A stretch of 64,000 nt of DNA from Argopecten irradians (lineage: Eukaryota > Mollusca > Bivalvia > Pectinida > Pectinidae). The stretch covers positions 8,985,340 to 9,049,339 of the forward strand of contig NC_091142.1 of NCBI RefSeq assembly GCF_041381155.1. The letters run 5' to 3'. The first letter of the stretch is position 1, and every line of letters starts with the position of its first letter. The notes beneath the pieces were generated by a model, which saw nothing but the letters and a program-made list of their open reading frames with translations, was not told the origin of the DNA and did not search any database. A program made the position numbers and the translations under genes. Positions 5,071 to 62,800 of this stretch are shown here, piece after piece.

Positions 5071-8000
5071 TTTAGGTCATCTGACCCGAAGGGTCAGGAT
5101 GACCTATAGTCATCATGTTTCGTCCGTCGTCGTCCGCCGTGCGCCGTGCGCCGTGCGCCGTGCGCCGTCCGCCGTGCGCCGTGCGTTAACTTTTCACATT
5201 TTGAACTTCTTCTCAAGTTCTACCAGTGCGATTAGGCTGAAACTTGCGTGAAATGATCCTGACATGGTCCCGACAAAGTGTTGTTATTTTTCGGGTCGAT
5301 CCGAAATCCAAGATGGCCGCCACAGCCGCCATCTTGAAAACACATTTTGAACTTCTTCTCAAGTTCTACCGGTGCGATTTGGCTGAAACTTGCATGAAAT
5401 GATCCTGACATGGTCCCGACAAAGTGTTGTTATTTTTTCGGGTCGATCCGAAATCCAAGATGGCCGCCACAGCCGCCATCTTGAAAACACATTTTGAACT
5501 TCTTCTCAAGTTCTACCGGTGCGATTTGGCTGAAACTTGCGTGAAATGATCCTGACATGGTCCCGACAAAGTGTTGTTATTTTTCGGGTCGATCCGAGAT
5601 CCAAGATGGCCGCCACAGCCGCCATCTTGAAAACACATTTTGAACTTCTTCTCAAGTTCTACCAGTGCGATTTGGCTGAAACTTGCATGAAATGATCCTG
5701 ACATGGTCCCGACAAAGTGTTGTTATTTTTCGGGTCGATCCGAAATCCAAGATGGCCGCCACAGCCGCCATCTTGAAAACACATTTTGAACTTCTTCTCA
5801 AGTTCTACCAGTGCGATTTGGCTGAAACTTGCATGAAATGATCCTGACATGGTCCCGACAAAGTGTTGTTATTTTTCGGGTCGATCCGAAATCCAAGATG
5901 GCCGCCACAGCCGCCATCTTGAAAACACATTTTGAACTTCTTCTCAAGTTCTACTGGTGCGATTTGGCTGAAACTTGCGTGAAATGATCCTGACATGGTC
6001 CCGACAAAGTGTTGTTATTTTTCGGGTCGATCCGAAATCCAAGATGGCCGCCACAGCCGCCATCTTGAAAACACATTTTGAACTTCTTCTCAAGTTCTAC
6101 CGGTGCGATTTGGCTGAAACTTGCATGAAATGATCCTGACATGGTCCCGACAAAGTGTTGTTATTTTTTCGGGTCGATCCGAAATCCAAGATGGCCGCCA
6201 CAGCCGCCATCTTGAAAACACATTTTGAACTTCTTCTCAAGTTCTACCGGTGCGATTTGGCTGAAACTTGCGTGAAATGATCCTGACATGGTCCCGACAA
6301 AGTGTTGTTATTTTTCGGGTCGATCCGAAATCCAAGATGGCCGCCACAGCCGCCATCTTGAAAACACATTTTGAACTTCTTCTCAAGTTCTACCAGTGCG
6401 ATTTGGCTGAAACTTGCATGAAATGATCCTGACATGGTCCCAACAAAGTGTTGTTATTTTTCGGGTCGATCCGAAATCCAAGATGGCCGCCACAGCCGCC
6501 ATCTTGAAAACACATTTTGAACTTCTTCTCAAGTTCTACCGGTGCGATTTGGCTGAAACTTGCATGAAATGATCCTGACATGGTCCCGACAAAGTGTTGG
6601 TATTTTTCGGGTCGATCCGAAATCCAAGATGGCCGCCACAGCCGCCATCTTGAAAACACATTTTGAACTTCTTCTCAAGTTCTACCGGTGCGATTTGGCT
6701 GAAACTTGCATGAAATGATCCTGACATGGTCCCGACAAAGTGTTGTTATTTTTCGGGTCGATCCGAAATCCAAGATGGCCGCCACAGCCGCCATCTTGAA
6801 AACACATTTTGAACTTCTTCTCAAGTTCTACCGGTGCGATTTGGCTGAAACTTGCATGAAATGATCCTGACATGGTCCCGACAAAGTGTTGTTATTTTTT
6901 CGGGTCGATCCGAAATCCAAGATGGCCGCCACAGCCGCCATCTTGAAAACACATTTTGAACTTCTTCTCAAGTTCTACCGGTGCGATTTGGCTGAAACTT
7001 GCGTGAAATGATCCTGACATGGTCCCGACAAAGTGTTGTTATTTTTTCGGGTCGATCCGAGATCCAAGATGGCCGCCACAGCCGCCATCTTGAAAACACA
7101 TTTTGAACTTCTTCTCAAGTTCTACCAGTGCGATTTGGCTGAAACTTGCATGAAATGATCCTGACATGGTCCCGACAAAGTGTTGTTATTTTTCGGGTCG
7201 ATCCGAAATCCAAGATGGCCGCCACAGCCGCCATCTTGAAAACACATTTTGAACTTCTTCTCAAGTTCTACCAGTGCGATTTGGCTGAAACTTGCATGAA
7301 ATGATCCTGACATGGTCCCGACAAAGTGTTGTTATTTTTCGGGTCGATCCGAAATCCAAGATGGCCGCCACAGCCGCCATCTTGAAAACACATTTTGAAC
7401 TTCTTCTCAAGTTCTACTGGTGCGATTTGGCTGAAACTTGCGTGAAATGATCCTGACATGGTCCCGACAAAGTGTTGTTATTTTTCGGGTCGATCCGAAA
7501 TCCAAGATGGCCGCCACAGCCGCCATCTTGAAAACACATTTTGAACTTCTTCTCAAGTTCTACCGGTGCGATTTGGCTGAAACTTGCATGAAATGATCCT
7601 GACATGGTCCCGACAAAGTGTTGTTATTTTTTCGGGTCGATCCGAAATCCAAGATGGCCGCCACAGCCGCCATCTTGAAAACACATTTTGAACTTCTTCT
7701 CAAGTTCTACCGGTGCGATTTGGCTGAAACTTGCGTGAAATGATCCTGACATGGTCCCGACAAAGTGTTGTTATTTTTCGGGTCGATCCGAAATCCAAGA
7801 TGGCCGCCACAGCCGCCATCTTGAAAACACATTTTGAACTTCTTCTCAAGTTCTACCAGTGCGATTTGGCTGAAACTTGCATGAAATGATCCTGACATGG
7901 TCCCAACAAAGTGTTGTTATTTTTCGGGTCGATCCGAAATCCAAGATGGCCGCCACAGCCGCCATCTTGAAAACACATTTTGAACTTCTTCTCAAGTTCT

Positions 8001-9314
8001 ACCGGTGCGATTTGGCTGAAACTTGCATGAAATGATCCTGACATGGTCCCGACAAAGTGTTGGTATTTTTCGGGTCGATCCGAAATCCAAGATGGCCGCC
8101 ACAGCCGCCATCTTGAAAACACATTTTGAACTTCTTCTCAAGTTCTACCGGTGCGATTTGGCTGAAACTTGCATGAAATGATCCTGACATGGTCCCGACA
8201 AAGTGTTGTTATTTTTTCGGGTCGATCCGAAATCCAAGATGGCCGCCACAGCCGCCATCTTGAAAACACATTTTGAACTTCTTCTCAAGTTCTACCGGTG
8301 CGATTTGGCTGAAACTTGCGTGAAATGATCCTGACATGGTCCCGACAAAGTGTTGTTATTTTTCGGGTCGATCCGAGATCCAAGATGGCCGCCACAGCCG
8401 CCATCTTGAAAACACATTTTGAACTTCTTCTCAAGTTCTACCAGTGCGATTTGGCTGAAACTTGCATGAAATGATCCTGACATGGTCCCGACAAAGTGTT
8501 GTTATTTTTCGGGTCGATCCGAAATCCAAGATGGCCGCCACAGCCGCCATCTTGAAAACACATTTTGAACTTCTTCTCAAGTTCTACCAGTGCGATTTGG
8601 CTGAAACTTGCATGAAATGATCCTGACATGGTCCCGACAAAGTGTTGTTATTTTTCGGGTCGATCCGAAATCCAAGATGGCCGCCACAGCCGCCATCTTG
8701 AAAACACATTTTGAACTTCTTCTCAAGTTCTACTGGTGCGATTTGGCTGAAACTTGCGTGAAATGATCCTGACATGGTCCCGACAAAGTGTTGTTATTTT
8801 TCGGGTCGATCCGAAATCCAAGATGGCCGCCACAGCCGCCATCTTGAAAACACATTTTGAACTTCTTCTCAAGTTCTACCGGTGCGATTTGGCTGAAACT
8901 TGAGTGAAATGATCCTGACATGGTCCCGACAAAGTGTTGTTATTTTTCGGGTTGATCCAAAATCCAAGATGGCCGCCACAGCCGCCATCTTGAAAACACA
9001 TTTTGAACTTCTTCTCAAGTTCTGCCGGTGCGATTTGGCTGAAACTTGCATGAAATGATCCTGATATGGTCCAGACAAAGTATTGTTACATCTAGATCTG
9101 GTTGATCCCAAATCGAAGATGACTACCATGACACTATATATATCTAATTAATTTCCTATATGTTAAGGTCCTTGGGCCTCTTGTTTGAAATAAAATTTGT
9201 TGAAAGAAATTGAAAATGATCCTGACATGGTCCTGACAAAGGGACACCATATATAATTAATTTTACTATGGCCAAGGTAGTCAGATGACCGTTAAGGCCC
9301 TTTGGGCCTCTTGT
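5071..9314 (+). mobile_element. Mollusc-type dispersed element expanded by an internal satellite
   Basis: The left end reads AGGTCATCTGACCCGAAGG and is followed by a CGTGCGCC-rich stretch. The right end reads GTCAGATGACC then GGCCCTTTGGGCCTCTTGT, with a similar shorter end at about 9165-9183. A fragment with the same left end lies at 34313-34410, showing that the family is dispersed. Nearly all of the inside is the 146-bp satellite. I know this end structure as common in bivalve genomes, from memory only. Confidence 0.6.
5199..9100 (+). repeat. 146-bp satellite, about 26 copies, with higher-order structure
   Basis: Monomers repeat every 146-147 bp with very few differences. Each holds an inverted repeat, CAAGATGGC with GCCATCTTG about 10 bases apart. 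Marker variants (extra T in the T-run, GAGATCC for GAAATCC, CCCAACAAAG, TGTTGGTATT) recur in the same order after 10 monomers (about 1,462 bp: 5367 to 6828) and then after 9 monomers (about 1,317 bp: 6828 to 8145). The minus-strand 63-residue open frames in each monomer overlap out of frame, since 146 is not a multiple of three, and are not genes. Confidence 0.93.
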
Positions 9315-22420: not shown

Positions 22421-24207
22421 TATATACTGTAAGTAGGTTTAACACTTCCGTCAGTGTAAGTGACCTGTCTACAAGGGTAATAACTTCCTAATGGAGTTAG
22501 AAAACAATGTGCGTCTGTGGTAGTCGTTTAATAACAGGACGCTGGCCCACTTGATGTCAGTATCACATGATAGCACGCAAGATGAGTCGGAAAAATATAT
22601 CTGTTATAAATCCTCTGTTTTACATAAAAATGTATGGAGACGTTGCCATGACAACGAAATATTGTTTGTATATGACTGTTAGTCTATAACTTTGCAATAT
22701 TTTGTAGGGTAAAAAAATATTGAGTTTACTTATACTGATAGAGTTATTCACCTAACGAAGATATCATCTAATTGGAAAATACGATAGTTAATCAGGCTTG
22801 CAATACCTGGGAAATCACGAGCTAGTATGGCACATTCTGCATATATATTCATAGCTTTCTTAATTTTACAAAAAAATAATTACAAAAAAATAAAACTTGA
22901 CTTTATTTTTACAGAGATTTTCGAAACCGATAATATTAAAACACTTAATAATATATATAAACCCTTCACAAATTATCAGCTTAGATTCGCCGTGTGGAAA
23001 TTGAAAGAAAACAACACATGACAGGTTATATAACTTACTCTTTATGTCTGTTTCTATATTTAGCAAACAAGCAATTTTGCACATGACTTACAAATGCACA
23101 CATCACGCGCCCGTTTCAGAGGCATCTGAGGGGTTTTTCTAAACTTATAGATATTTCTCTATTTTGTATTTAACATACAAGTGCATGTTTACAGTCGCCA
23201 CATCCTCGATATTCCAGGGGTTCCGATCACTTACGATCTCTCGTAAGTGATCGGAGCCCCTGGAATATCGAGGACGCAGTCGCCACAATGGAGTAAACAG
23301 TTCGGTTACGGTGCGGGGACGCCACAGTTTCGTAGGATATTTTTAGACAAGCACAGTAACGTGTACCTTATTTATCTATTTAATTTTGTCGAAACTTTTT
23401 ATGCATTATTAACCCCACTGGAATTATTGATGTTTATTTGTTATTTTTGTCTCTAGTCGCACTTTTACTTCTTGAATTTGGTGAGGTCGACAAATATTAC
23501 AAATGTGTCATGTACATGTATGAGTTTTGTATGGTGTGCAGAGTTATCCATAGACCACCAGTTTAACGCCAAAATGTGCTGGATCCAGCGGTGGCACCAA
23601 TTTTGCCCCCTATCCTTAAATTCTGACGTCACATCAATTTTTATGGTGAGCAGTCAATATTAGATTTCATAATTACAAGAATTATTGGTATTTTGTTCAG
23701 GAAAATTATCTGATTATCTAACCAACACGACATACAAAACTATGATTCACGCATTTGTCAGACGTCATCAGGGTTTTGATCTTATATGCTTAGATCATAT
23801 TTTATTATCTACATAACAGACTATGACCTGTAATTACACATTATTTGTTTAGATTGTGACGTGAACACCAATCCCCTGTGTTACACGGGCATAGAATCAC
23901 ATTTAAATTCATTAAACAGTATAGATGATTTTTTTCCAGATCAAGAGGCAGACTCAAAGTGTTGAGTGCATTTGACTCTGGGAATGAATTATTCGGCTGT
24001 GTAAAGTCTGATTGCTATACATAAGTTGGAATATTTAGTCGACAAAGCAGGAAAGAAGAGAGGTTTGACAACTTTTTATATCAACATGCTAATAAATACA
24101 CCAGAGAAAGGAAGGAACCGAACCCACCATCTTAGATCTTTTTATAACTAACAAAGACGAAATGATAAGAAATATTGTTCATGAAAATTCCTTTGGGACC
24201 AGCGATC
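22421..24207. other. No gene seen apart from a hairpin at 23203
   Basis: Open frames at 22827-23021, 23247-23456 and 23472-23663 have no domain or splice support. One of them runs through the hairpin. Confidence 0.4.
23203..23276. mobile_element. Small hairpin insertion with 11-bp direct repeat
   Basis: CCTCGATATTCCAGGGG pairs with CCCCTGGAATATCGAGG and CCGATCACTTACGA with TCGTAAGTGATCGG. The same 11 bases, CAGTCGCCACA, stand on both sides (23192-23202 and 23277-23287), as expected of a target duplication. The arm word GAATATCGAGG also occurs near 31730, 36590, 37970 and 38030. Confidence 0.75.
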
Positions 24208-28479: not shown

Positions 28480-31400
28480 TCACTTGTATCCGTCGTATTT
28501 GATTGGAGGAAAATGATCCACTCTGACCGGTTCCTCATAGTGAGGCGGATTATACAGACCCCACTTTGGCATGGGAATCTCCATTGGGTAGGGCTGTTTG
28601 AAGGTGAAGCGTCCCTGGTAGGATTTGTTATGGGACATGGGACGAAGGACATCCTTCTGCATCACTTCGTTTGTGTAAGATATGAAATCGTCATGCGTCC
28701 GGCTCGTTGGCTTGGATGGACGTTCATAGTGCCAGTTCACTTTCTTGTAGTCGGCTGTGAAACAAGTTGATAAGAACATTATATATATCGACAATCATTA
28801 AACATTTTTGATTTGATAGTATTGTAATTTACAAGATATATCATACATTGTTGTGGCTCTAACCGGGGGGCCACCTCAGTTAAAACTAACCTAGGCAAAA
28901 TATTCTACCGATTAAGCTACCTGGTAGAAATGATCGACCCGATCCCTCATGGTCTGATCCACTCTCCTTATTTGCTTATTTGCTCCAAAGACCCAATTCC
29001 TTCTTTGCATAATTGGTGGGGAAGAATTGGGTTTGAACCTTAATCTAATTACACTTCCAATCAAGCTACCTGGTCACTTATGTTTTATCAAGCCCTGCTA
29101 CTACACTTTGAGGAACAGAATCTAAAACTCTTTCTATTATGTGATGAACAGGATCTAAAACTCCTTAATGTTTTATGATCAATAGAATCTAAGACTGCCC
29201 TGTATATATCTTACAATCAATAAAAGACTGCCCCCTCCCCCACCTACCCCCACCCGAACCCCATGTCGATTAACTGACTTACATCTCCTGATAGTGTTGA
29301 TGTTCCTGTTGAACCAGTCTGGGTGCTGTGATGACGATTTCCTGGCGTACCAGTCAGGATGTGGTCCCCCCCATTTCTGCCAGCCATTCTGTCAACAGGA
29401 CAAACAGGGTACATATTAATACCAATCAAAACACCTCAACTTATATTAGTTTGGACCTTGTCAGAATCATTTCAGGCCAGTTTCAGCTAAATCTCACTGA
29501 TAGAAGTTGGAGAAAAAGTTCAAAATAAGTTTTCAAGATGGCAGCTGTGGCGGCCATCTTTGAATTCAGATTGACCTGTAAAAATTAACAATTGTGAACA
29601 CTAGGTCAAGACCAATTTTTATCAGGTAAGTTCCCCTTAAATCCAACTGTTTGAACTTGAAAAGACGTAAAATAATTTATGCCCTGCAGACAACAACGAA
29701 CAATTTAAGCATGATGGCTATATATGTGCCGTTTCATCCCTAAACAAGAGATCCCAGAGTGGAATTGGCGCCACCAAAGAATGATCTATGTCTGGACAAC
29801 AGAAAGAGGGATCTTTCCCAGCATTCAAACTGTTTACTACATACTATATACTTATAAACTGAGAAAGATCCTTTCAGATTACTTATCTGGCAGAAACAAA
29901 CTTCAATTATCAAAATCCAAGAGTTGCATTACCTGTCAATCTCATCTGCGTGACCAGATAAGTCCAAAATGCACTAGACCCCGTTCAGGAACCTGCACAT
30001 GAAATATCGAGAAAAAAACCTTCATTATCACCACTTTCTGAGAAATAAGCGGTAACAAACTTTAACTATCAACATCCAAGATGCCCGCCTACGTGCCAAC
30101 ATGTGGACCGATCTGTCCCCAAAAACAATATGCACAACTAGGGTCCTAGGGGAACCGACATATGAAATTCAAGTACTTATACATGGAAAATCGCGTTAAT
30201 CAAACTTTAACTATCAAAATCCAGATGGCCGCCGGTGGACTATCATAGACAGATTGATACCCAAAATGCAATATGCACAACTATGGCCCTAGGAGAACCT
30301 ACATATGAAATTTTTGAAAGATCCCTTCACAACTTTCTAGAGAATAGCGGGTAACAATACTGTAAACTATCTAAATCCAAGAATGGCCGCTCAGTCGGCC
30401 ATCTTGTTGACAGATAGGTCCCCAAAATGCAATATGCACAACTAGGGGCCTCTAGTGGAACCTACATTGTGAAATTTGAGAAAGATCCCTTTCAACAGCT
30501 TTCCTGAGAAATAGCGGTAAAACAAACTTTAACTATCAAAATCCAAGATGGCCGCCAGTCGCCCATCATGTTGACGCGATTGGACCAAAATGTCAATGCC
30601 CACAACTAGGGCCCTAGGGGAACCTACATGTGAAATTTGAGAAGATCCTTTCAAAGTACTTCCTGGTGAAATAGCGGTAACAAAACTTTAAGCTATCCAA
30701 AATCCAAGATGGGCCCGCCCAGTCGGCCATCTTGTTGACCGATTGGTCCCCAAAATGCAATATGCACAATAGGCCCTAGGGGACACCTACATGTGAAAAT
30801 TTTGATGAAAGAACCCTTCAGTACATTCTGGGAATAATAGCGGTAACAAACTTTAACTATCAAAAAGATCCACGAAGGCCTGCCAGTCGGCCCATCTTTG
30901 TTGGGCCGCGAAGTAGGTCCCAAAATGGCACTCTGCACAACTAAGGCCCTAGGGGTAACCTACATGGTGAAAATTTGAGAAAAGATCCCTTCAACAGACT
31001 TCTTGAAAATAGCGGTAACAAAACTTTAACTATCAAAATCCAAGATGGGCCGCGCATCGGCATCTTTGTTGACCGAGCTTGGTTCCCAAAAATGCAATAA
31101 TGCACATCTGAGGGCCCGTAGGGGAACCTACATGAGTGAAATTTTGAGAACGATCTCCGTCACAGCTTTCTGAGAAATAGCGGTAAACAAACTTTAACTA
31201 TCTAAAATCCAAGATGGCCGCCAGTCCGGCCCTCTTTTTGACCGACTGTGGTCCCAAAAATGCCATTATGCACAACTAGGCCCTAGGGGAACCTACAAGT
31301 GAAATTTGAAAGAAACCCTTCACAGCTTTCCTGAGAAATAGCAAAAAAGTCAACTTACATGTGCTATATCAGGGCTACTGGAGTGGTACCTTTTCAGGAG

Positions 31401-32696
31401 TAGAGGTCGGCCTGCCTAAAAACAAAATATCATCACATTATCACTCAATTATTTACAGTCAATGAGTCAAATCATCCTAGACATTTTGGCATAGCAAAAG
31501 TGAAGGCTTTGTCTTCAACAGCAGATGAGCAGTTCATTTGGTCCTTTCATGTACATCAAAATAATTAAATAACGGTACATTGTGGTTAACTTTGTTGGTA
31601 GTCACTCTTCAAAAGAAGTTAATGCTGGCCTGTGATTGGTCAGTTTTTCTCACCTGAACTGCATTCAGTTTTCCTATGAGATGCTATGTATAGGATATAG
31701 TGCTGGGGTGGATATATCAACAGTGAAAGTAACCTCTGGAGTATCGAGATGCACCAAAATGTACATACAGTGTATGCTGTGTTTACATATTACAGAGTTT
31801 TAAAAATTATCTGCTGTTTCGGATGTCGGTATATAATTAAGTTATCAATTGTGTCATATTATGTGTTTACGCATATCGGCGCATGACAATGGACAAAAGA
31901 CAATTGCAAAAAAAAGTGTGTCAAATTTTTTTCATTAAACCATTACTAACATAACTTTGTGCATTAATCATAACTCATAAGGAGAAAACTTCAATTATTG
32001 TCACAATTTACATGAACCTGCATTAAATTTTACTATTAAAGAAGCAACATGTAAAATATATAAAATGTAGAATACTGTCATAGGTAAAACTCTCTCAGCC
32101 ATGCTAAATGTTTCTGATGTACATGAACAGACAGTTATATAAATTGTCATCCATAAAAAATATGCTTATAACTTTTAGACATGCAATCAAGCAGTCTTAA
32201 ATTCGATTTCAGTTGTAATTAAGGCAATCTTAAAATTGTGACGTCCTGTTTTATAAATATGTTTAAAACAACTTTTAACTATTTTCGTTTCACAGAATTC
32301 TGTATTTGGCAAACTAAATTATAATTCTAATTGATAACCGTTACTCAAATGCATGCCAGTGTTACAAATACATATATTGTACATGTAAGCATACACATAC
32401 ATTGTATCACAGGAGTTTGACGTTCTGTCAATAATATATAGCATACATATATTAAAAAATACCCCTATATACTATATGTTTTTTATATTGTATATAGGGG
32501 TATTTTTTAATATATGTATGCTATATATTATTGACAGAACGTCAAACTCCTGTGATTGTATACACAACTGTACATTTAGCTGAGAGGCTTTCCAGAAGAT
32601 TTATATTGCCCTTTATTTATATAAGGAACATAAAACTCTATCTCAGAAATAAAATGAGTATTTTAACGAGGTATTTAAAGCCGTCATGCTTACCAT
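28480..32696 (-). CDS. 146-aa Trp/Tyr/Pro-rich probable axonemal protein, four exons
   Basis: Coding segments, 5' to 3': 32694-32696 (the ATG itself), 31359-31415, 29283-29388, 28480-28754. All junctions are GT/AG (donors GTAAGC, GTAAGTTG, GTAAGTCA) and the total is 441 nt ending in TGA. The start chosen is the ATG formed by the last three bases of exon 1, followed after splicing by GCAGGC. The upstream ATG at 32746 is out of frame and stops in exon 2. The product begins MAGRPLLLKRYHSSSPDIAH. It is rich in Trp, Tyr, His and Pro, has no signal peptide or membrane segment, and ends with WGLYNPPHYEEP and KYDGYK. Motifs such as SYQGRF and PKWGLYNPP faintly recall sperm microtubule inner proteins, but I could not assign a family. 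Its head-to-head neighbour, the shared X-box and its composition lead me to infer a cilium or flagellum microtubule-associated role. Confidence 0.75.
28855..29075 (-). repeat. Two tRNA-like promoter units (SINE heads)
   Basis: On the minus strand, GGTAGCTTGATTGGAAG then GGTTCAAACCC (about 29075-29013), and GGTAGCTTAATCGGTAGA then a weak GGTTAGAGCC (about 28945-28860), look like box A and box B pairs of tRNA genes. Neither folds into a convincing cloverleaf. They lie in the last intron of the gene ending at 28480. Confidence 0.45.
29440..29600 (-). repeat. Diverged relative of the 146-bp satellite monomer
   Basis: The order of words (CCTTGTCAGAATCATTTCAG, GTTTCAGCTAAATC, AAAAGTTCAAAATAAG, TTTTCAAGATGGCAGC, GCGGCCATCTT) mirrors the satellite read on the minus strand. 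A second relative is at 62740-62900. Both are single copies, so the satellite probably grew from such a dispersed element. Confidence 0.6.
29735..31345. repeat. About 160-bp tandem repeat, about nine copies, noisy
   Basis: Copies contain CCAAGATGGCCGCCAGTCGG, CCCAAAATGCAATATGCACA, GCCCTAGGGGAACCTACATG and ATAGCGGTAACAAACTTTAA in that order. They differ chiefly by single-base gains and losses, often in short runs. The array fills most of the intron between coding exons 31359-31415 and 29283-29388. Confidence 0.85.
31785..31900. repeat. Diverged fragment of the GTCTTTGCATATTACAGAG MITE
   Basis: TGTTTACATATTACAGAGTT and TTATGTGTTTACGCATATC resemble the MITE at 17879; the centre is badly diverged. 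It lies in the first intron of the gene starting at 32696. Confidence 0.35.
32408..32554. mobile_element. Palindromic MITE with 7-bp target duplication, copy 2
   Basis: Same arms as 20155-20308 (CAGGAGTTTGACGTTCTGTC and complement), near-perfect hairpin, flanked by ATTGTAT on both sides (32401-32407 and 32555-32561). It lies in the first intron of the minus-strand gene, about 140 bp from exon 1. Confidence 0.92.
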
Positions 32697-32953
32697 AACT
32701 TAGGCTGGCTGGCAGGAATAGATAGAAACTGGGCGGTGGAAGCCATGACGGACGTACGCACTCGGGCCGCTTACGCTCTCAACACAATAACATTTAACTT
32801 TATCGATCAATATTAAAATACCTCAAAATTATCCACAAATCTCTGATATTTCTGCGTTTTATTCTTTATTTTTTTCTTCGTTTTGTTTGTTCAGTTGTCG
32901 CTGACATCGCAGCCTTGCAGAAATATTAACGAAAATCGGATACCGATGTTTCA

Positions 32954-32968
32954 GTTTCCCTTAGCAAC
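32954..32968 (-). promoter_or_regulatory. RFX X-box
   Basis: Minus strand GTTGCTAAGGGAAAC fits the X-box pattern RYYNYY, 1-3 spacer bases, RRNRAC (here GTTGCT, AAG, GGAAAC). RFX factors use such sites to switch on ciliary genes in many animals. It stands about 260 bp from the minus-strand start codon and 270 bp from the plus-strand one. Confidence 0.6.
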
Positions 32969-33032
32969 GTTTGTAAACTGATCCTTAGTTACCACATTAA
33001 TAAATGAAGATCGCGATTGATTTTTTTTCTCA

Positions 33033-33047
33033 TTTTCCATTAGCAAC
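33033..33047 (-). promoter_or_regulatory. Second, weaker X-box-like site
   Basis: Minus strand GTTGCTAATGGAAAA matches the 5' half of the X-box and most of the 3' half, but ends AA instead of AC. Confidence 0.35.
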
Positions 33048-33239
33048 ACCTAGATAATTTCATTCCATCAAGAGTGAATCCAAATTTATCAACATTTTGT
33101 GTTGTTAATAGCTAATTACCTACGATACCCGTCAAACTAGCTAACAACTAAGCGGGCACCTGCTGTTTGTAATGATATAAGCGACGTGAACAGGGGTGGC
33201 AACTACAGTGGACTGACAGAAGAAATAATATCGGGTAAA

Positions 33240-36200
33240 ATGGGGGATACTTTGTTTTTTAATGGCCATCAGGCGAAGGCTCCATACCATGTTAACTATC
33301 CACCCACCGTTCCGAGATACCCAAGCTCACAGGAAATGTTCAGGTCAGTAAAAACACCAATACACTATGAATTAATTGCACAATGTACAAATGTACATAC
33401 AACGTACATTGTATGTATATCAATGTATACAAATGTATAACACATAAATACACGTAAAATGTATGTGTGTATATGTATACTTGAGCTACATGTACATTTT
33501 GGTGACATTCACTGTATATTTTACATTGAAATATTTCGTAAATTACTTTTATTCTTAATTATGATTCACTCTCCACACTCTGAGTCTCAACGTCATACTC
33601 CCATCATCATCATCATCATCATCACCATCATCATTCATCATCTTCAATATCATTATCAATTCACTATCATCTCATCATTATCATCATCTCATCATTGTAC
33701 TATCACTTAAATTTAATATCATACTGTACTTCATGCTCTCAACTTTCATTCCTAAACAATCTCATAATTCCATTTAAATATAAAATCATACTTATATAAA
33801 TGTATACTCTTCTCTCATACTTTCATAAAAGGACAATAGTTCCACTATACAAGAAGACACAGCATGAATATACCGCAGTCTCCCAAAACACTCACCTCGC
33901 ACAACATACACGCAACACACAACATACATGGGAGGCCGCCCTTACATGGCCATAGCTGTTGATAGGACGTTAATTAATCAAACAAACAATCCATAAAGGC
34001 GGTTAATTGGGATATTTGTAAATTAGATTTGCGCTAAGGTGTATTAGTACGTGTACATATAGATAGAGCTGCAGGTATTCATTGCATGTCCTGATAATGA
34101 TATTATATGACCAGGGTTGGAAACTCGGTCACGTGATTGACTTCATTACAACAGTCTCTTTAAGAGACTAAAAAGCACGTGTAAAATTCCAAATATTTTT
34201 TGAACAGACAGAAACATACACACTTTTTCTCTATTAGAGTAATTGGCAACATAACTCTTCCATTTTTATGATCGGCAGATGCAGATATACCCCGGTATAT
34301 GTGCTTAAAGGTTTTTAGGTCATCTGACCCAAAGGGTCAGGGTGACCTATATTGTCATCATGCATCGTCCGTTCTTATGAGTCATGCGCAAACTTTTCAT
34401 TCAAATGACTTTTCGATAACTTGCCATGTTGACTTGCCATTATTGGCATATACTTTTCAATTGAAAAAATCTTCATATTTATATGTGGAAAAAAATAATG
34501 TCTCACCGTGAATTTGATATTTTATAGGGTTCTTTTTGATTGTTTAGTAGGTACATGTAAGTGATATAAAACAAGTACGATAAAATGCATACAAACGTTT
34601 TAATAATGGTTTGCATATTCATTACTTTGTTCCATTAGCAGTAATAGGCACCAATTGTAGCTCTAAAGTCGACACCATTATCTGCTTTTTAGCTACAATA
34701 TTGCTGCTAATAAAGCAATGTCAAGATGAATTTTGTTATTGTCTACACATAAAGCAATGAAAAGATGAATTTTGTGATCGTGTTCACTAGTCCGCTAAAC
34801 CTGCCTAGATTATTAGGTTTGGTTTTTTTTTAAATTTTATTTTGCCTAATATATATTAGGCAATTTTTTTTTTATAAAAGCCTAATAATATAGGCAGGTT
34901 TAGCGGACTACGTGTTAACATAATGCAATGAAAAGATGAATTTTGTGATCGTCTACACATAATGCAATGACAAGGTGAATTTTGTGATCGTCTACACATA
35001 AAACAATGACAAGATGAATTTTGTGATCGTCTACACATAATGCAATGACAAAATGAATTTTGTGATCGTCTAAACATAAAGCAATGACAAGATGAATTTT
35101 GTGATCGTCTACACATAAAACAATGACAAGATGAATTTTTTTGATCGTCTACACATTGCAATTACAAGATGAATTTTGTGATCGTCTACACATAATGCAA
35201 TGACAAGATGAATTTTGTGATCGTCTTCACATAAAACAATGACAAGATGAATTTTGTGATCGTCTACACATAAAGCATTGACAAGATGAATTTTGTGATC
35301 GTCTACACATAATGCAATGACAAGATGAATTTTGTGATCGTCTACACATAATGCAATGACAAGATGAATTTTGTGATCGTCTACATATAAAGCAATGACA
35401 AGATAAATTTTGTGATCGTCTACACATAACTCAATGACAAGATGCCTTTTCTGTTACAGAAGGGAAAGTCCTGATAAATACACAACGTTGAAGAGGGAGC
35501 GAGTGTCATACCAGGTATGTATCGTGCATGTATTTCAAAAATTTAAGTGAATAGTCGAGCAAATGAATGCTAAATTCGATAAAAATGGTGTTGAAACATC
35601 CAGTATATTTCTTATGATAGAGAAAACTAAAATTTCACATCCAAATTGCTCTGGATTAAAATAAATTAATTTATATTATAGGAATCCTAAAATGTCCTTC
35701 CGGCTGGCTATGTCCGTGTTGATATTAATTTCCATGCATCTCGCTTTTAAAGAATTTATTTTTAAAACTGTGCTAAAACACAAGTCTTTTCCATAATTTC
35801 AATGGTCAAAAGTGTACAACGTAAGCAGAACATGACCATTGTTTTGATATGTAAGACTTTTGGAAGGCCAATGAATGCATTTATACTAGTTCTCATTGCC
35901 TGACTATTCACTTTAATAGTTTGTTTAATACAGAACGTAAAGAACTGTGATTTAATTTGCAAAAGCCTGCAATCAGAAGTTTTGTTTTCTTCATTAAATA
36001 GTTTAACAATATAATATCTATGTAATTTTAGCAGCGGTTGCGTTTGTTAAAAGACACACTTTATGCAATTCGGCCAAAAGGACGTTATCCACGGCATTTG
36101 AGAAACTTAAGAAACACTAGTATCGAAGATTTAGTCTTATCTTCTATTGCCTAAATTGATGAATTGGACAGAGTTTTCTGGTGTTGGTGAACAATTCCTG

Positions 36201-38521
36201 TAATTCTTGTAATATTTACACAGAAATGAATTGATTTGTTGAGAAATGAGATATTAGAAAAACAAAATCACCATGGCTTAAAAAGTATGGAACATTTCTC
36301 ATTTCATGTATAATGTCCTCTTGACGTACCAATATCCTAAAAGTGGTTACGTCATTATTACATCAATGCTTTTTAGCAGAATCAACTATTCTTTTACATT
36401 ATTCATACATCAATAGTTTTGATTGCATACCTTCATATACCAACATATTTTTTGTTGCTCTTGTAGACTCTATGTCAAAAGCTATAACACTTTGAACGTT
36501 TAACATGAGTTATGTATTAACCCCGGTAATATGTTAGAAGGATATTACTTATAACGGTAAAATTCCGATAGAAAACGAAACTATCCTCGATATTCCAGAG
36601 GTTACTATCACTGTTGTTATTTCCACCATTGAACTGTGTCATTGCAAAACTGAAGGCCCTTTGTGCGACAAAATATGAGACAGGTAGTTTGGTCTTTTGA
36701 TGTACACCAAATAATGGAATAAAGATACACTGTATACTTTGAAGCAGGACACTCTTCAAAGAAAGTCTGTGTAGGCCTGTGATTTATTCGTTTTTCGCTC
36801 TCCTGCAATGCCTTCATTTTCACTGCAGAGGCAATATATCCTAACCTGAATTTCAGGTCAAGAAATCCTTAATTGAATTTCAATTATGGTCAATTTCAGG
36901 TCAATTTCTGAGTCAGTTCAAGATTTCTTGACCTGAAATTCAGGTCAGATATCATGTGAAATTCTGGCCAATTTCAAGTCAAGAAATCTTGGCCTGAATT
37001 TCAGGTTAAGATTTCCTCATGCGACCTTCATGTCAAATTTTCTTTGGGTCATTTACCGGATACTGTTATGGCTGTTAATTTCATTAACTTCATTCATTTT
37101 AATTAAAAACGATTTGTAAAATTGTCTATTAAAATAATTCCTCCGGTATACGACGGTCTGAAGAAAGACGAAAAGACTTTGTTGAAGTTCTTAGAAGAAG
37201 AGAAAGAAAAAAGGGTTGAAGAATGTGAACCTACTTGAAAGTAGATCATTCCAAGCTATCATTATTAAATTGCAAAACAATATTTGATTGCTATTTCCTT
37301 CTTTCAAAAGTTACTAGTACTGACACATTTACATGTACATGTAAAAGTTCATCAGTATGCTATGGCGAAGAATACTTGTTAAAATGTGGCTTTTCGTCAG
37401 ACGATTATACTTCGCTAGGTTGTCTCCTGATTGGTACCCGACTGTACGTGTTGAAGGAGGTTATAAACATGTGCGGATGCTGCAACCTAGTAGCCTCGTG
37501 ACCTGATCATTTGGAATGTTTAGGGCCATAAGCTCCTTGCTATGAACTGGGTGCGGTGTTTTATATCCACAAAGTTCATGGTTTAGAAGTAGTTAAGCCG
37601 CCTCTGCCACTTTTGGGTGGCCACATTCATTCCATATGTTCCGTAAAGTTAAAACTATTAAGAAAAAAAGTCAATTGCAGGTTAAAATTCAGGTTAAAAT
37701 TATAATATATTTAAAATTTAACCTAAAATTTACCATAATTTCATATGAATTTGACCAGAATTTTACCTCAGCGAATTTTCATGTGAAAGTTAGGTTAACT
37801 TAGTTTCTTTTATCCTGAAATTGACTTTTCAGTTTGTTTCAGGTCAATTTCGGGTCAGAACATTTTAACCAAAAATTCTGGTTAATTTCTTGTCAATTAC
37901 AGGCTTGGAAATTTTGTTTGTGTATATATGTCATAGTATAGGGGTGGATATAACGACAGTGAAAGTAACCCTATGAATATCGAGGATGGTCCAGAGGTGG
38001 ATATAACGACAGTGATATTAACCCCAGGAATATCGAGGGTGTGGATTGCTGTCCACAAAGACATCGTTGTATATTGCTGAATAAAACATATACATTATTA
38101 ACATGTTATATATTTTTCTCCCCAGCACTGGACCGACAAATGGTATGACAATGGCTACCCAACTCTCCAGCGCCGGGAGCTTCCGAAACGTTCAGACAGA
38201 CACGAGCCATGTAGTCAGCCATGGCAGTATAATGTAGGCACATCGGCAATCAGTCGGTGGACCAAGGACGCCAAAGACTGGCCTGTCTCACCAAAATACC
38301 TTACCCAAGGGAGACCCCCAACCGAGGCCACGCGCGCACGTGGTATCAACCGTCTCTCTCTTCCGCGTGAGGAAAACCTGTATCCATTTTCCAACTTCAT
38401 GACGTCGCAATATAGAAAGCCAGTATACTCCGTATTTGGTCATCTACAGAAAGACAAGGTATATGGAGTCACTCACCAACACAACAGACACGGAAACATG
38501 CCGTTCGAGGATTATTACTAA
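33240..38521 (+). CDS. 184-aa Trp/Tyr/Arg-rich probable axonemal protein, three exons
   Basis: Coding exons 33240-33343, 35460-35514 and 38126-38521; the junctions are GT/AG in phases 2 and 0, giving 555 nt to TAA. The start is AAAATGGGGG, a good initiation context; an upstream in-frame ATG at 33186 exists but is less likely. The protein starts MGDTLFFNGHQAKAPYHVNY. The first 53 residues are Pro/Arg/Tyr-rich, and the last exon holds HWTDKWYDNGYP, SRWTKDAKDWPVSPKYL and a C-terminal HNRHGNMPFEDYY. There is no signal peptide, membrane segment or coiled coil. Scattered Trp, Tyr, Arg and Pro with short turn-like motifs resemble small proteins that line axonemal microtubules, but I cannot name the family. 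It shares an X-box promoter with the minus-strand gene starting at 32696. A 39-bp minisatellite fills intron 1 up to the exon 2 acceptor. Confidence 0.78.
33601..33710 (+). repeat. (ATC)n microsatellite
   Basis: An imperfect run of CATCAT/ATCATC words, about 110 bp, in intron 1 of the plus-strand gene. Confidence 0.9.
33826..33990 (+). mobile_element. tRNA-derived SINE, copy 2 (3' part)
   Basis: Begins TCATAAAAGGACAATAGTTC and ends GTTGATAGGACGTTAATTAA, matching the 3' half of 18205-18570. The tRNA-like head is missing. Confidence 0.6.
34313..34410 (+). mobile_element. Left-end fragment of the AGGTCATCTGACC element
   Basis: AGGTCATCTGACCCAAAGGG, CAGGGTGACCTATATTGTCA and a TCATGC word match the left end at 5071. 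No satellite follows. Confidence 0.65.
34710..35445 (+). repeat. 39-bp tandem repeat next to a 3' splice site
   Basis: About 17 copies of a 39-bp unit containing GCAATGACAAGATGAATTTT and GTGATCGTCTACACATAAA. The last copy stops at CAATGACAAGATG, directly followed by the CCTTTTCTGTTACAG acceptor of exon 2 at 35460. Minus-strand open frames rich in CRRSQNSSCHC are products of the repeat. Confidence 0.92.
34789..34911. mobile_element. Palindromic MITE inserted in the 39-bp array
   Basis: TAGTCCGCTAAACCTGCCTA is mirrored by TAGGCAGGTTTAGCGGACTA; the centre is T/A-rich. Flanks CGTGTTCAC and CGTGTTAAC look like a 9-bp target duplication with one change. The repeat resumes in step on the other side. 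Confidence 0.8.
36032..36154 (+). CDS. Possible alternative last exon of the plus-strand gene
   Basis: An acceptor (TATGTAATTTTAG) is followed by 40 open codons and TAA. The exon would join exon 2 (ends in phase 0 at 35514) in frame and give a shorter product with a basic tail containing AIRPKGRYPRHLRN, in place of the 131-residue last exon. The peptide looks coding-like but has no family I know, and no AATAAA follows closely. It may equally be a stray open frame in the intron. Confidence 0.3.
   Translation, partial: QRLRLLKDTLYAIRPKGRYPRHLRNLRNTSIEDLVLSSIA
36845..37030. repeat. Interspersed TGACCTGAAATTCAGGTCA palindromic words
   Basis: Words such as GAATTTCAGGTCAAGAAATC and their complements recur about six times, and again at 37670-37915, as two separated halves of a low-order repeat. 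Confidence 0.6.
37670..37915. repeat. Second block of CAGGTTAAAATTC / CAGGTCAATTTC words
   Basis: Same vocabulary as 36845-37030, more diverged. Two copies of the GTGGATATAACGACAGTGA word (37945-38040) follow it. Confidence 0.5.
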
Positions 38522-45388: not shown

Positions 45389-48300
45389 TTAATATGTACC
45401 TGCAACAACAAAAGATACACTGATGATGGTTTGTTTACCTGATCAGAAACAACCAAAGATACACAGATGATGGTTTTTACATGATCAGAAACAACATAAG
45501 ATACATATATGATGGTTTGTTTACCTGATCAGAAACAACATAAGATACACGTACATGTATGCTGATTCTTTACCTGATCAGAAACAACATACAGATGATG
45601 GTTTAAACAAGTTATCCTACAAGTGTATTTTTCACATTTTGATCCAACTCAAGTTACTTAATTTTAAAATATTGAAAAGTCACGAGCTTCAGTGAGTTTT
45701 TATTTTAACAAATTTGGAATCAGGTAAAATTTTTGGGCGCTCTTATTGAAGGAAAGGTCCTCCACCTTACACATAGTTACTTTACCGCACTCCGCAGTAC
45801 AACTATTGTCAGGATTTTTTTATTTCATATTTTCTATAGGCACACCAACTTCGTTAGCCAAATGTATGCATTACGATACTCACTCCGAAGGGACAGTATC
45901 GTACTGAATACCATTGGATAGCGAAGATGCACTAGCTTTCCTCCTTTTCCAAAATCTGACACGTGCTTGAATGTTTCTGTCTGTTATTGTAAGGCGCAAG
46001 ATAAACTTTCCCGATATATTTATAACATTTCATGCCAACTCTGAAATAGGCACGTTTACCATACAATGTTATCTACTTACGTCCGCCCTTGCTACCTCCT
46101 ATTCCAGAGTGTCCTCTCATTCCTCCCATTCCTCCGATTCTATTGATGATGCCACCCATTCCGCCGATGCCACCTATTCCGCCTCCGATGCCACTGTGCC
46201 AACCTGGCATCCCACCGTACGTTGGATAATATCCTCCCATTCCACCGTGTCCACCGCTCATTCCACCGTATTTACCGCCCATTCCACCATATATGCCGCC
46301 CATTCCACCATGTATACCGCCCATTCCACCATATCTTGGGTAATATCCTCCCATTCCACCGTATATCCCGCCCATTCCACCGTATATTCCACCCATTCCA
46401 CCGTATATGCCGCCCATTCCACCGTATATACCGCCCATTCCACCGTATATGCCGCCCATTCCACCATGTATACCGCCCATTCCACCATTCCTTGGGTAAT
46501 ATCCGCCCATTCCACCGTATATACCGGCCATTCCACCATTCCTTGGGTAATATCCGCCCATTCCACCTGACATTCCAACATAGTATGGGGAATTGTTTCC
46601 CCAGCCGCCTCTCATTCCACCACGTGAATAATAGTCTCCGTTGTTTCGACCATAGTCATCCCAGCTACCCGAATATCCGTTCATACCACTTGGATATCCC
46701 ATTGGATACCCCCTCATTCCACTTGGATACCCCGTTGGGTACCCCCAGTTTCCATGTCCCCCACTATGACCTCCACCCTTTCCATCTGGACACAGAAAGA
46801 TCACAAATATATTACAAAACAAACACTGTTATAATAACTGGCATAACGATTATTAATTGTATTCTAATATCTATTGTGAAATTAGTTTAGTAATTTTCTC
46901 AGGTGTAAGCGTCTGCACATGTAATCGAACTCTAAGCTAGGTGAAAGGTGAATGACTTGACCATTATACGCCACCCGATCACCTATATCAAACGACACAC
47001 AATATAAATGACTATGGTTTGGACCCTTTTTGGTTCCCTACTTCATCAAATGATCAAACCTTTCAAATACCCAGTTTATCCCTTATACAATTAGTATGAT
47101 AATTATGCATCATTGCATCATATTTGGCATAGCTTTTCTTTTAGAAATCACAAATCGCACTCAAAAATAACTTAGTTTACGATTATTACATAGAGAAGTG
47201 ATTTACGAAAGCTTTTTGCACTTTGTAAATATACTATATTGTCTTTATATGAAAATATATTATATTATGTTGAAACTGAAGCATGCCTACACAGTGGCGT
47301 AGGAAGATGAAACGTCATGGGGGGGGGGGGCAAAGGTCCTCAATATTTTGTAAAAAAAAAAAAAAAAAAAAAAACCCGCCACACCTACAGGAGGAGATTA
47401 ATTCAACTCCCAACCATATAATATATGCTTTATGTACATTTTTCATATATCACTAAATTTAATCCTTGTTCACATTTATAGACAGTGGGGTCGCTAAAAG
47501 GAAATTAACAAATACGCAAATTGGCCGAATTAGCGTGTGAGCGTCGAAGGCGCGAGATTTTGGTGTTTTATTAGGGATCTGAGGGTGACCCCCGGGATGA
47601 GTTTTATGTATTTTGATGATTTTGCGATAGCCCGACAGCGCAAGATTTTGGTGTTTGGGGGTCCGGGGGTCTCCCCCGGGGAAAAAATACGATTTAGAAT
47701 GGCTGAGATGATTTTTACGATGCATTTTGATGAATTTGCGATCGCCCAAAGGCGTGAGAATTTGGTGTTAGGGGGTTCGGGGGTCTCCCCCGGGAAAAAA
47801 ATTACGATTTAGAATGGCTGAGATGAGTTTTACGATAAAGTTTAATGAGTATAAAACGTTCTTAACATGGTATTTTTTCGATTTAAAGCTACCTGCATTT
47901 AGAAATGATAATTGTGTCGTCATAACATTATGCAACCCTACTCGATCTGAATATACCGTCTTCACACCATCGGCACATTGTTGTGTAACATAAAAAAATG
48001 AATTAATTGTCTCGCTATGACATATAAACAAATTGATCTTTTAAGAGACATTTTTTTAAATAGCACATAGAATCCCTTGATGGACATTTTTAGTCAAGTT
48101 TGTGTGTATTGAATTTTCACTATTTAAGGTTTGATATTATGTGCTTGAACGTTTTAGGAAATGCGCCGCGCAGCGGAAAATTTTCTAGAATGAACTACGA
48201 AAAATGTGTAGGAGGACCCTTTTTTCTTTCAAATAAGCATTTTTAGAAAATTTCAGTCGGCGAAAATGGGGGGGCAAAAAGACATGTTTGCCCCCCCCCG

Positions 48301-59813: not shown

Positions 59814-62800
59814 TCACGGCAAAATCTGTAAAATTAGAATAATTCATGAAAAGTATCTATTAATAAGCTTCATGTTTATGGTTAATAAGAATGTCTGTCC
59901 CGTTTTTGTCTATAACTTCTTACTTTTGATTGTTTGTTTGATTAATTAACGTCCTATTAACAGCCAGGGTCATGTAAGGACGGCCTCCCATTTATGCAGT
60001 GTGTATGGGGTGAATGGTGTGTGTTTTGGGAGACTGCGGTATATTAGTGTTGTATCTTCTTGTATAGTGGAACTGTTGCCCTTTTTATAGTGTTATATCA
60101 CTGAATCATGCAGCCGAAGACACCAAGCAACATACCCCACCTGTTCACATTATACTGACAACGGGCGAACCAGTAGTGCTACCCTGATCACTTCTAACCT
60201 ATAGAAATGAATGTAACTGATATACAATTGAATTGTTTGAAAATTAATCTTGTCATTTATCAATGGCTGGTACTACTGTTTCACAAGTTTTACATTTTAT
60301 ATATATATAAGCTCACCATTAATATTTAAACAAACTTTAGAATGAAATGGCTTCCCAATAACTGTAGACCAATTTTTTAGACAATAACTATATAATGTAC
60401 ATGTATACCCAAATTCATGTATTTATAATTTCATATGTTACACTCATTTCTATTGGTTTTATTTTTGAGGTTATTTTTTTCATAGAAAGGAAGTATTGTC
60501 CGTCAAGTATTATGTATTATGACATCATATATATACAAAATGTTTTCCAGGAAAAAAATTAAAAGCAGCACAGTCATTGGCCAATCTGAACTATTGGAAA
60601 AGATATCAATGCGCCACAACTGAATTAGTTTTATTGTAAAAGTAAGTGAAAGCACGGAATCAATGCCTAATGAGTACCTCATTAAGTTATTCAAAGTAAA
60701 TTATAAGCATTATAAGCAAAAAGGACGGACAATCTTTTTCATAGACTAAGTATCTATGAAGAATGTCCTTCCACTTTTTCTCTATGCCTTCATAAACCCA
60801 AAAGATATAGAGAATAATGCTTAAAAGTACCACACTCATGTATCACTGCAAGAAAACACAAGAACCACAACTGTTACAACAAAATTTCTAATATTTTCCC
60901 TTCAGTTTTCTATTTTTTTCGAAATTTGGTGTGAATTGATACTTTTTAACCTAAATTGTTTATATTTCAATTACTTTGAGGTGGAACGTAGGGTGACTAG
61001 TCTAAAAAAATTTTTTTAAACAAAACATCACTTTACCTCAAACTCACTGCTCATTCCCATCAATGTGTCCTTGACCTTGCTGATGTAACACAGTACATAT
61101 TTTCCCGCCTTTTCTGGTAAGTCCTTCTGTTTCCAGGTTACTACAACATTTGGCTTGTCACGTCCCTCTACATTACTCACCGCGTATTTATAACTGAGGT
61201 AGTTGTTTACAGTTGAGAAGTCAGTCTGTAAGGCAAGTAAATGAAAAGAAAACATTAACATTCAGCAATCTCTCTTACTTCGGACATCAAGGATATCCAT
61301 AGTTTCAATGGTGTGAGAATTTGCTTTCTCCCATACTTCAAAGGGATATCCCTTGGTTGCTAGGTAAAAGATATCTCTATCTTACACAGGGGGGTGTCAG
61401 ACAGCTCACACGCACTAGACAATAACGTGACGTCATCAAAACATGCGGCGTAACTGTGGCGCACATTGTAGATGACGTCATCAATTTTGACGCATAACAA
61501 CATTCCTGCGATAATGGCGCGATGAAAAAGCTAGAAACCAAGTGAAATTTCATCACTTTTTCTACTAAGTATGGGAGAAAAAGAATCAAACATGGATCTG
61601 TGAAGTGGACAGGGATATATCAACCCTCGGCAAGCCTCGGGTTGACCGGCCAAAATCTTTTACTCGGGTTGAGATATCCCTGTCCACTTCACAGACCTAT
61701 GTAAGATTCTATTAATTTCACCTAAAGGTAAAGACAAGCTACTCAAGATCTTTGCACATTCTCTACAATGATGTCGTGGCAACAGTATCATGATATTGCA
61801 GTAGACATTATGGCAACAATGTAATGAAGTCACAACCACGTCATTCCTGCATGATTTACTGTTACGTCATTTTAGAGACACAAAGTAGTGCACAGGGTTT
61901 AAAAGAGAGATAGGATCATTCATCCCCTTTGGGGTGAGACAGGAGATCTCAACTCTCAGGATAAGATTCTTAAGCTGTCAAAGACTCGACAAAGTCTCAT
62001 GTTTGACAACTTTAGAATGTTACCCCTGAGTCGAGATTCTCCGGTCTCATCTGAAAGGGGATTAAAGATGCTATTGATCTTTACCTTATAAAGACCTATC
62101 CAATCCCAGGAAGATGAGGACAGTTCAGGGTTAGTCCGGTATGTGTATCGGATGTCCATGTCGTGTTTGAGTCTACAGGACGAGGGAACCTGGAACGTCA
62201 CCACAGGTGGGTTGGGGGGATGAGGAAACACCTGGAAATATACAAACTTCACTGATAAAACACAGTCACACTAAACATCTCTGTAATTTAACAAGGTGCA
62301 ACGAAGCATTGCAATATCCCACCCCCACCCACCCCAACCGCAGTCTGATATATACAAAACAAGAGGCCCAGAGGGCCTGTATTACTCACCTGGTTAGCTC
62401 AGTAAATATCACAAATGTTTGACGAAACCTAAGGCTTATGACTTTAATCTCCCATCACATAAGTACTGACAGGGAGGCTAGCATTCAAACATGAGTGATA
62501 TCCATTGCTTACATGATAGTTCCAGAGACAAATCATTTATACTAAACATTAGCCTCATCATTTGTACAATCTTTACTTCACAAATTTAGTTAAATTCCGA
62601 ACAACGATTATAAACATGTCACAGTACATACAGTATAAGTTCACCTTGGATCTTCGTACCATGTGAGCTGAAGTTTTATGATCTAAGTTGAAGATTTGTT
62701 TTTGTTCTAGGTATAGCCCAGAAACAAAAGGAAACTGATATTTGATGTTTTGACACTGGTAGAATTTTAAAAGTTCAAAATGTGTTTTCAAGAGAAAGGT

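Follow-up and report, generated by a model that had tools for sequence, protein, structure and literature searches.

Two divergent orphan genes with a candidate RFX-type shared promoter in Argopecten irradians

The 64,000-nucleotide stretch of Argopecten irradians DNA analysed here (the window, located on contig C9 of an 846-Mb assembly) contains, judging from its sequence, two real orphan genes with a plausible RFX-type shared promoter. The genes are spliced, lie head-to-head about 0.5 kb apart, and encode predicted proteins of 184 aa (plus strand) and 146 aa (minus strand). As the best explanation, we tentatively favor an RFX-controlled pair with a ciliary role, to which we give slightly less than an even chance. 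So far, the locus offers a pair of orphan genes with a promoter that can be put to the test, and no new mechanism. The features of the locus are listed in Table 1.

Table 1. Exons, start codons, and X-box-like sites of the gene pair (window coordinates)
Feature	Position	Strand	Remarks
Shared upstream region between outermost start codons	32747..33239	.	presumed bidirectional promoter, from its position between the genes
X-box-like 15-mer GTTGCTAAGGGAAAC	32954..32968	-	half-sites 3 bp apart
Weaker X-box-like copy GTTGCTAATGGAAAA	33033..33047	-	13/15 letters in common with GTTGCTAAGGGAAAC
Third half-site GTTGCCA	33197..33203	-	37 bp from plus-strand start codon
Plus-strand gene, exon 1, coding part	33240..33343	+	ATG, starts MGDTLFF; donor GTCAGT
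Plus-strand gene, exon 2	35460..35514	+	acceptor TTACAG, donor GTATGT; modelled frame is the only stop-free one
Plus-strand gene, exon 3, including stop codon	38126..38521	+	131 residues; top coding score outside masked arrays
Minus-strand gene, modelled ATG (final 3 bases of exon 1)	32694..32696	-	uncertain
Minus-strand gene, exon 2	31359..31415	-	19 codons; re-found as its own match in the assembly search
Minus-strand gene, exon 3	29283..29388	-	short internal repeat HPDWYAR / HPDWFNR
Minus-strand gene, exon 4, including stop codon	28480..28754	-	codon-score rank 9
Upstream reading frame of minus-strand gene, first part	32694..32746	-	24 codons; overlaps modelled start out of frame

Gene models and coding evidence

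An earlier note on this DNA had described two small multi-exon genes diverging from about 0.5 kb. Both models were rebuilt at the same lengths: three exons of the plus-strand gene joined into an open frame of 184 aa and four exons of the minus-strand gene into an open frame of 146 aa, and the head-to-head arrangement held. All five introns across both genes were of the GT..AG type (10/10 ends were GT or AG). The GC content of the exons was 0.45–0.53 vs. 0.31–0.42 in the introns and the intergenic stretch.

To score coding potential, a codon model was built from exons of tektin, CFAP20-domain, RIB43A, and BBS5 genes in this assembly, a small and ciliary training set, and segments were ranked over the window minus eight masked tandem arrays. 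The two largest exons showed coding bias: exon 3 of the plus-strand gene took the first rank, followed at some distance by exon 4 of the minus-strand gene (Table 1). Exon 3 of the minus-strand gene was among the best 45 segments listed, but in the wrong frame, and none of the remaining coding exons appeared among these 45 in its own frame. The modelled frame outscored the other two sense frames in five of the six coding exons, the exception being exon 1 of the plus-strand gene. Per-codon scores of the coding exons were modest (-0.13 to 0.47), against a background of 0.09–0.46 for the top 10 of 278 stop-free stretches. Since these scores are mostly not above the best background, the case for the small exons depends on their splice sites, frame, and GC content. 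The start of the minus-strand gene is uncertain because an upstream ATG at 32746 (minus strand), a point absent from the earlier note, opens an overlapping frame; this ATG has G at both -3 and +4.

The assembly was searched with both proteins at E up to 0.001 and then up to 10, and the best candidates alone were scored. At E up to 10, each protein matched solely its own gene, and no second copy of either gene was found in the 846-Mb assembly. One or both gene models could be wrong or untranscribed, being composed of chance exons or representing decayed genes, and the awkward start of the minus-strand gene and the unexceptional codon scores of the small exons are consistent with this; however, every one of the five introns has consensus splice sites, and this, the GC contrast of the exons, and the codon bias in the largest exons argue against it; we regard such an error as highly improbable. 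From their sequences, the two models look like real, divergently oriented protein-coding genes, each found once in the assembly.

The introns of the pair carried tandem repeats. Intron 2 of the minus-strand gene, between exons 2 and 3, contained about seven copies of a 164–168-bp unit with 12–13% indels between copies (30188–31342), and a 39-bp array of 13.5 copies occupied the end of intron 1 of the plus-strand gene (34918–35444), stopping 15 bp before exon 2. A short coding-like stretch (DGLKKDEKTLLKFLEEEKEKRVEECE; 37140–37238) without a Pfam match was located within intron 2 of the plus-strand gene. Elsewhere in the window, there was a long satellite array with a 146-bp unit (5195–9088; about 27 copies, 98% matches). 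A 251-codon open frame with GGM/GGY repeats (46073–46828, minus strand) had no Pfam match, and we take it to resemble a glycine-rich structural or shell-matrix protein. An exon-like stretch on the same strand (61031–61234) contained a SKICH domain (Pfam E 6.9e-10), presumably as in CALCOCO/TAX1BP1-type proteins.

X-box-like sites in the shared upstream region

RFX-type (X-box) motifs switch on cilia genes. The X-box-like site and the weaker copy reported previously were both present between the two genes, along with a third half-site (Table 1). The exact sequence GTTGCTAAGGGAAAC occurred once in the window, 272 bp from the plus-strand ATG and 258 bp from the minus-strand ATG.

The site had been put forward because it matches the X-box pattern in full, and as evidence in itself this match did not hold up. 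The lax consensus RYYNYY N1-3 RRNRAC was found at one place on both strands (counted as 2), with 0.8–0.9 expected in 546 bp, and is thus at chance level. According to the available text of a Drosophila study (PMC2375033), RFX dependence is not predicted by a lax match upstream of the ATG, and between-species conservation of the site does help prediction. A lax match in this position is weak evidence and uninformative for RFX control. The restricted form GYTRYY N1-3 RRHRAC was observed once vs. 0.13 expected (P 0.13). No match in the shared region was obtained with the strict form GTNRCC N0-3 RGYAAC or with RTNRCC N1-3 RGYAAC, the least degenerate form quoted in the available text of PMC2375033. 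The form GTHNYYATRRNAAC was absent from the shared region even at one mismatch; the whole window held 18 such matches vs. 18.6 expected.

Graded scoring and half-site counts were compared with 169 chunks of 546 bp, drawn from six 5-kb stretches and from the remainder of the window. The graded X-box score of the GTTGCTAAGGGAAAC site was 15.3, reached in 1 of the 169 genomic chunks and in 0 of 300 simulated sequences with the dinucleotide content of the region; the matrix was entered by hand, and both matrix and half-site were picked after the site was seen. Three GTTGCYA half-sites lay on the same strand in 546 bp, where 0.076 were expected from the genomic background and 0.11 from simulated sequence. 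At least one half-site was present in 12 of the chunks, at least two in one chunk, and at least three in none. Once half-sites are counted, the RFX-like sites exceed chance, which gives the RFX reading better support, for a motif chosen after seeing the site. Two observations count against this reading: the spacer of GTTGCTAAGGGAAAC is 3 bp vs. 2 bp in all four best background sites, and no forkhead site RTAAAYA was found in the shared region. A near-palindromic X-box-like 14-mer at 22642–22655 (GTTGCCATGACAAC) scored 15.7, above GTTGCTAAGGGAAAC; no gene was placed adjoining it.

The same measures were applied to upstream flanks of other genes of this genome. The ciliary set comprised the 546 bp before the ATG of eight genes with a placed start (four tektins, CFAP20, RIB43A, CFAP68, and IFT20). 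PIERCE, BBS5, and a fifth tektin (C8), with first coding exons unplaced, were omitted, and a weak tektin-like match on C4 was left outside the set. The non-ciliary set consisted of ten upstream flanks of actin, actin-related, and ubiquitin-conjugating matches; some of them contain a few coding bases because flanks were cut by position, and in L069, L070, and L071 no start codon was visible. Within the ciliary set, the half-site was present upstream of three genes (CFAP20, RIB43A, and a single tektin), each time at most 180 bp from the ATG, and was lacking in the other five (three tektins, CFAP68, and IFT20). This frequency was higher than that in the chunks (12/169; Fisher P 0.02); the comparison with the non-ciliary flanks (1/10) was not significant (P 0.21). 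The 95% level of the chunks, a graded score of 12.6, was exceeded by a single tektin flank in the ciliary set (14.2; 1/8) and by a single flank in the non-ciliary set (13.3; 1/10). The latter, an actin-family upstream flank (L068, on C5), was the sole non-ciliary case combining the half-site with such a score. RTAAAYA, a common AT-rich word, occurred in six of the eight ciliary flanks. The score of the GTTGCTAAGGGAAAC site exceeded that of all eight. Given this mixed calibration, such sites do not clearly single out the ciliary genes of this genome.

The genes may be real and non-ciliary, with X-box-like sites that arose by chance or belong to another factor. The chance level of the lax consensus, its lack of predictive value in the available text of the Drosophila study (PMC2375033), the absence of a forkhead site from the shared region, and the failure to find a homologue with a ciliary role all agree with this, whereas three half-sites on the same strand in 546 bp do not; we consider it a serious possibility, short of probable.

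Protein composition and search for relatives

Both proteins were rich in Trp, Tyr, Pro, and Arg, as had been claimed (plus-/minus-strand protein: W 2.7/4.1%, Y 8.2/7.5%, P 9.8/11.6%, R 9.2/7.5%), and were also basic, with a net charge of +10 (184 aa) and +9 (146 aa). Hydrophobic runs longer than 3 were found in neither. The claim that they lack known domains was borne out as well: searches of Pfam and NCBIfam at E up to 10 gave no match with either protein. PDB searches by phmmer with both full proteins, also at E up to 10, were equally negative, as was the search with exon 3 of the plus-strand gene alone. Exon 4 of the minus-strand gene alone gave three weak PDB matches (E 0.36–1.2), to a phage-like-element protein and two hypothetical proteins. 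Because most weak matches are removed by the filters of HMMER, a distant relation is still conceivable. Homology to any ciliary protein was not detected in Pfam, NCBIfam, or PDB, which counts against the ciliary reading.

Viral contigs contained no credible relative of either protein. Two stretches fitting a sequence pattern were rejected, since tblastn showed no relative encoded there. The two proteins were likewise rejected as relatives of each other, their local alignment score being reached by 61 of 200 shuffles. Single-sequence structure prediction for the largest exon of each gene resulted in mean pLDDT values of 52.6 and 62.7, i.e., low confidence, and we take these models to carry no information on fold.

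The N-terminal sequence of the modelled minus-strand protein, MAGRPLLLKRYHSSS, is basic and acid-free, like a targeting sequence, so that this gene might encode a mitochondrial protein. That sequence alone points in this direction; the start codon is uncertain, given the upstream ATG, and the protein matches no family, and we consider a mitochondrial product very unlikely.

The composition had led to a comparison with microtubule inner proteins (MIPs) of the axoneme. A search for MIP relatives had been proposed in the earlier note; Pfam, NCBIfam, and PDB (by phmmer) returned no match for either protein, and the resemblance did not extend beyond composition, which is a weak argument for a MIP. 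Fragments of PIERCE (67 aa) and CFAP68 (73 aa) from this genome served as positive controls in the PDB search; they matched orthologues from sea urchin, mouse, human, and cattle, the best matches being sea urchin Pierce1 (E 1.2e-20) and sea urchin CFAP68 (E 1.1e-27), respectively. In view of these easy control matches and the lack of a PDB match for the pair, the two genes do not encode recognisable orthologues of solved MIPs. Neither protein contained any of the Mn, NWE, SNYG, PYG, GFG, and ELLEn signatures, and the DM10 domain was absent, with no Pfam match of any kind. The Mn, SNYG, and ELLEn patterns were used as printed in the available text of PMC10973386, NWE was loosened, and PYG and GFG were made by ourselves. 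The CFAP68 fragment gave NWE only and the PIERCE fragment only a relaxed SNYG; some of what is expected in these fragments escapes the patterns, and the absence of signatures therefore counts little.

Both products could be doublet MIPs that are lineage-restricted or too diverged, which would be a special case within the best explanation. Their composition is in line with this, and so are their small size and lack of named domains, features shared by many known MIPs. Against it stand the missing PDB sequence match of the full proteins and of exon 3 of the plus-strand gene (exon 4 of the minus-strand gene giving weak matches only), the ease with which the same search found the PIERCE and CFAP68 fragments, and the absence of all six module signatures, although the patterns are insensitive. 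We consider it unlikely that the two proteins are doublet MIPs.

Proposed control of the pair and comparison with known systems

In the RFX-controlled, ciliary explanation that we tentatively favor, the stretch of about 0.5 kb would act as a promoter common to both divergent genes. An RFX-family factor would most likely bind the clustered GTTGCYA half-sites, one of which has a recognisable second half, and would drive the joint expression of the two genes in cells that bear cilia or flagella. Their products, small, basic, Tyr/Pro/Trp-rich, and of no known family, might have an accessory structural function in the axoneme of cilia or sperm. What we infer for the pair is thus an active promoter to which RFX binds, co-expression of the genes, and an axonemal place of their products. 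A narrower version, in which one RFX-controlled bidirectional promoter co-regulates the two genes as a module and both products are lineage-specific axonemal proteins outside the known MIP modules, seems to us decidedly improbable. Axoneme cryo-EM so far covers few animal groups. If both proteins were axonemal, this promoter architecture would offer a way to lineage-specific axoneme parts missed by homology search.

Among the literature matches listed, with subscription journals thinly covered, no title or abstract opening concerned X-boxes in bivalve genes or MIPs in bivalves. The pair differs from the MIPs PIERCE1/2, CFAP68, CFAP107, and the SPMIP group in having no sequence match and no scanned module signature, and resembles them in that the proteins are small, Tyr/Pro/Trp-rich, and without long hydrophobic runs. 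Compared with the Drosophila X-box targets of RFX, as presented in the available text of PMC2375033, the region lacks RTNRCC N1-3 RGYAAC, and it was studied in one genome, whereas between-species conservation made the Drosophila predictions useful. Similarly to those targets, GTTGCTAAGGGAAAC lies less than 1 kb from both start codons, and it agrees with the lax consensus given in that text as well as with the restricted one.
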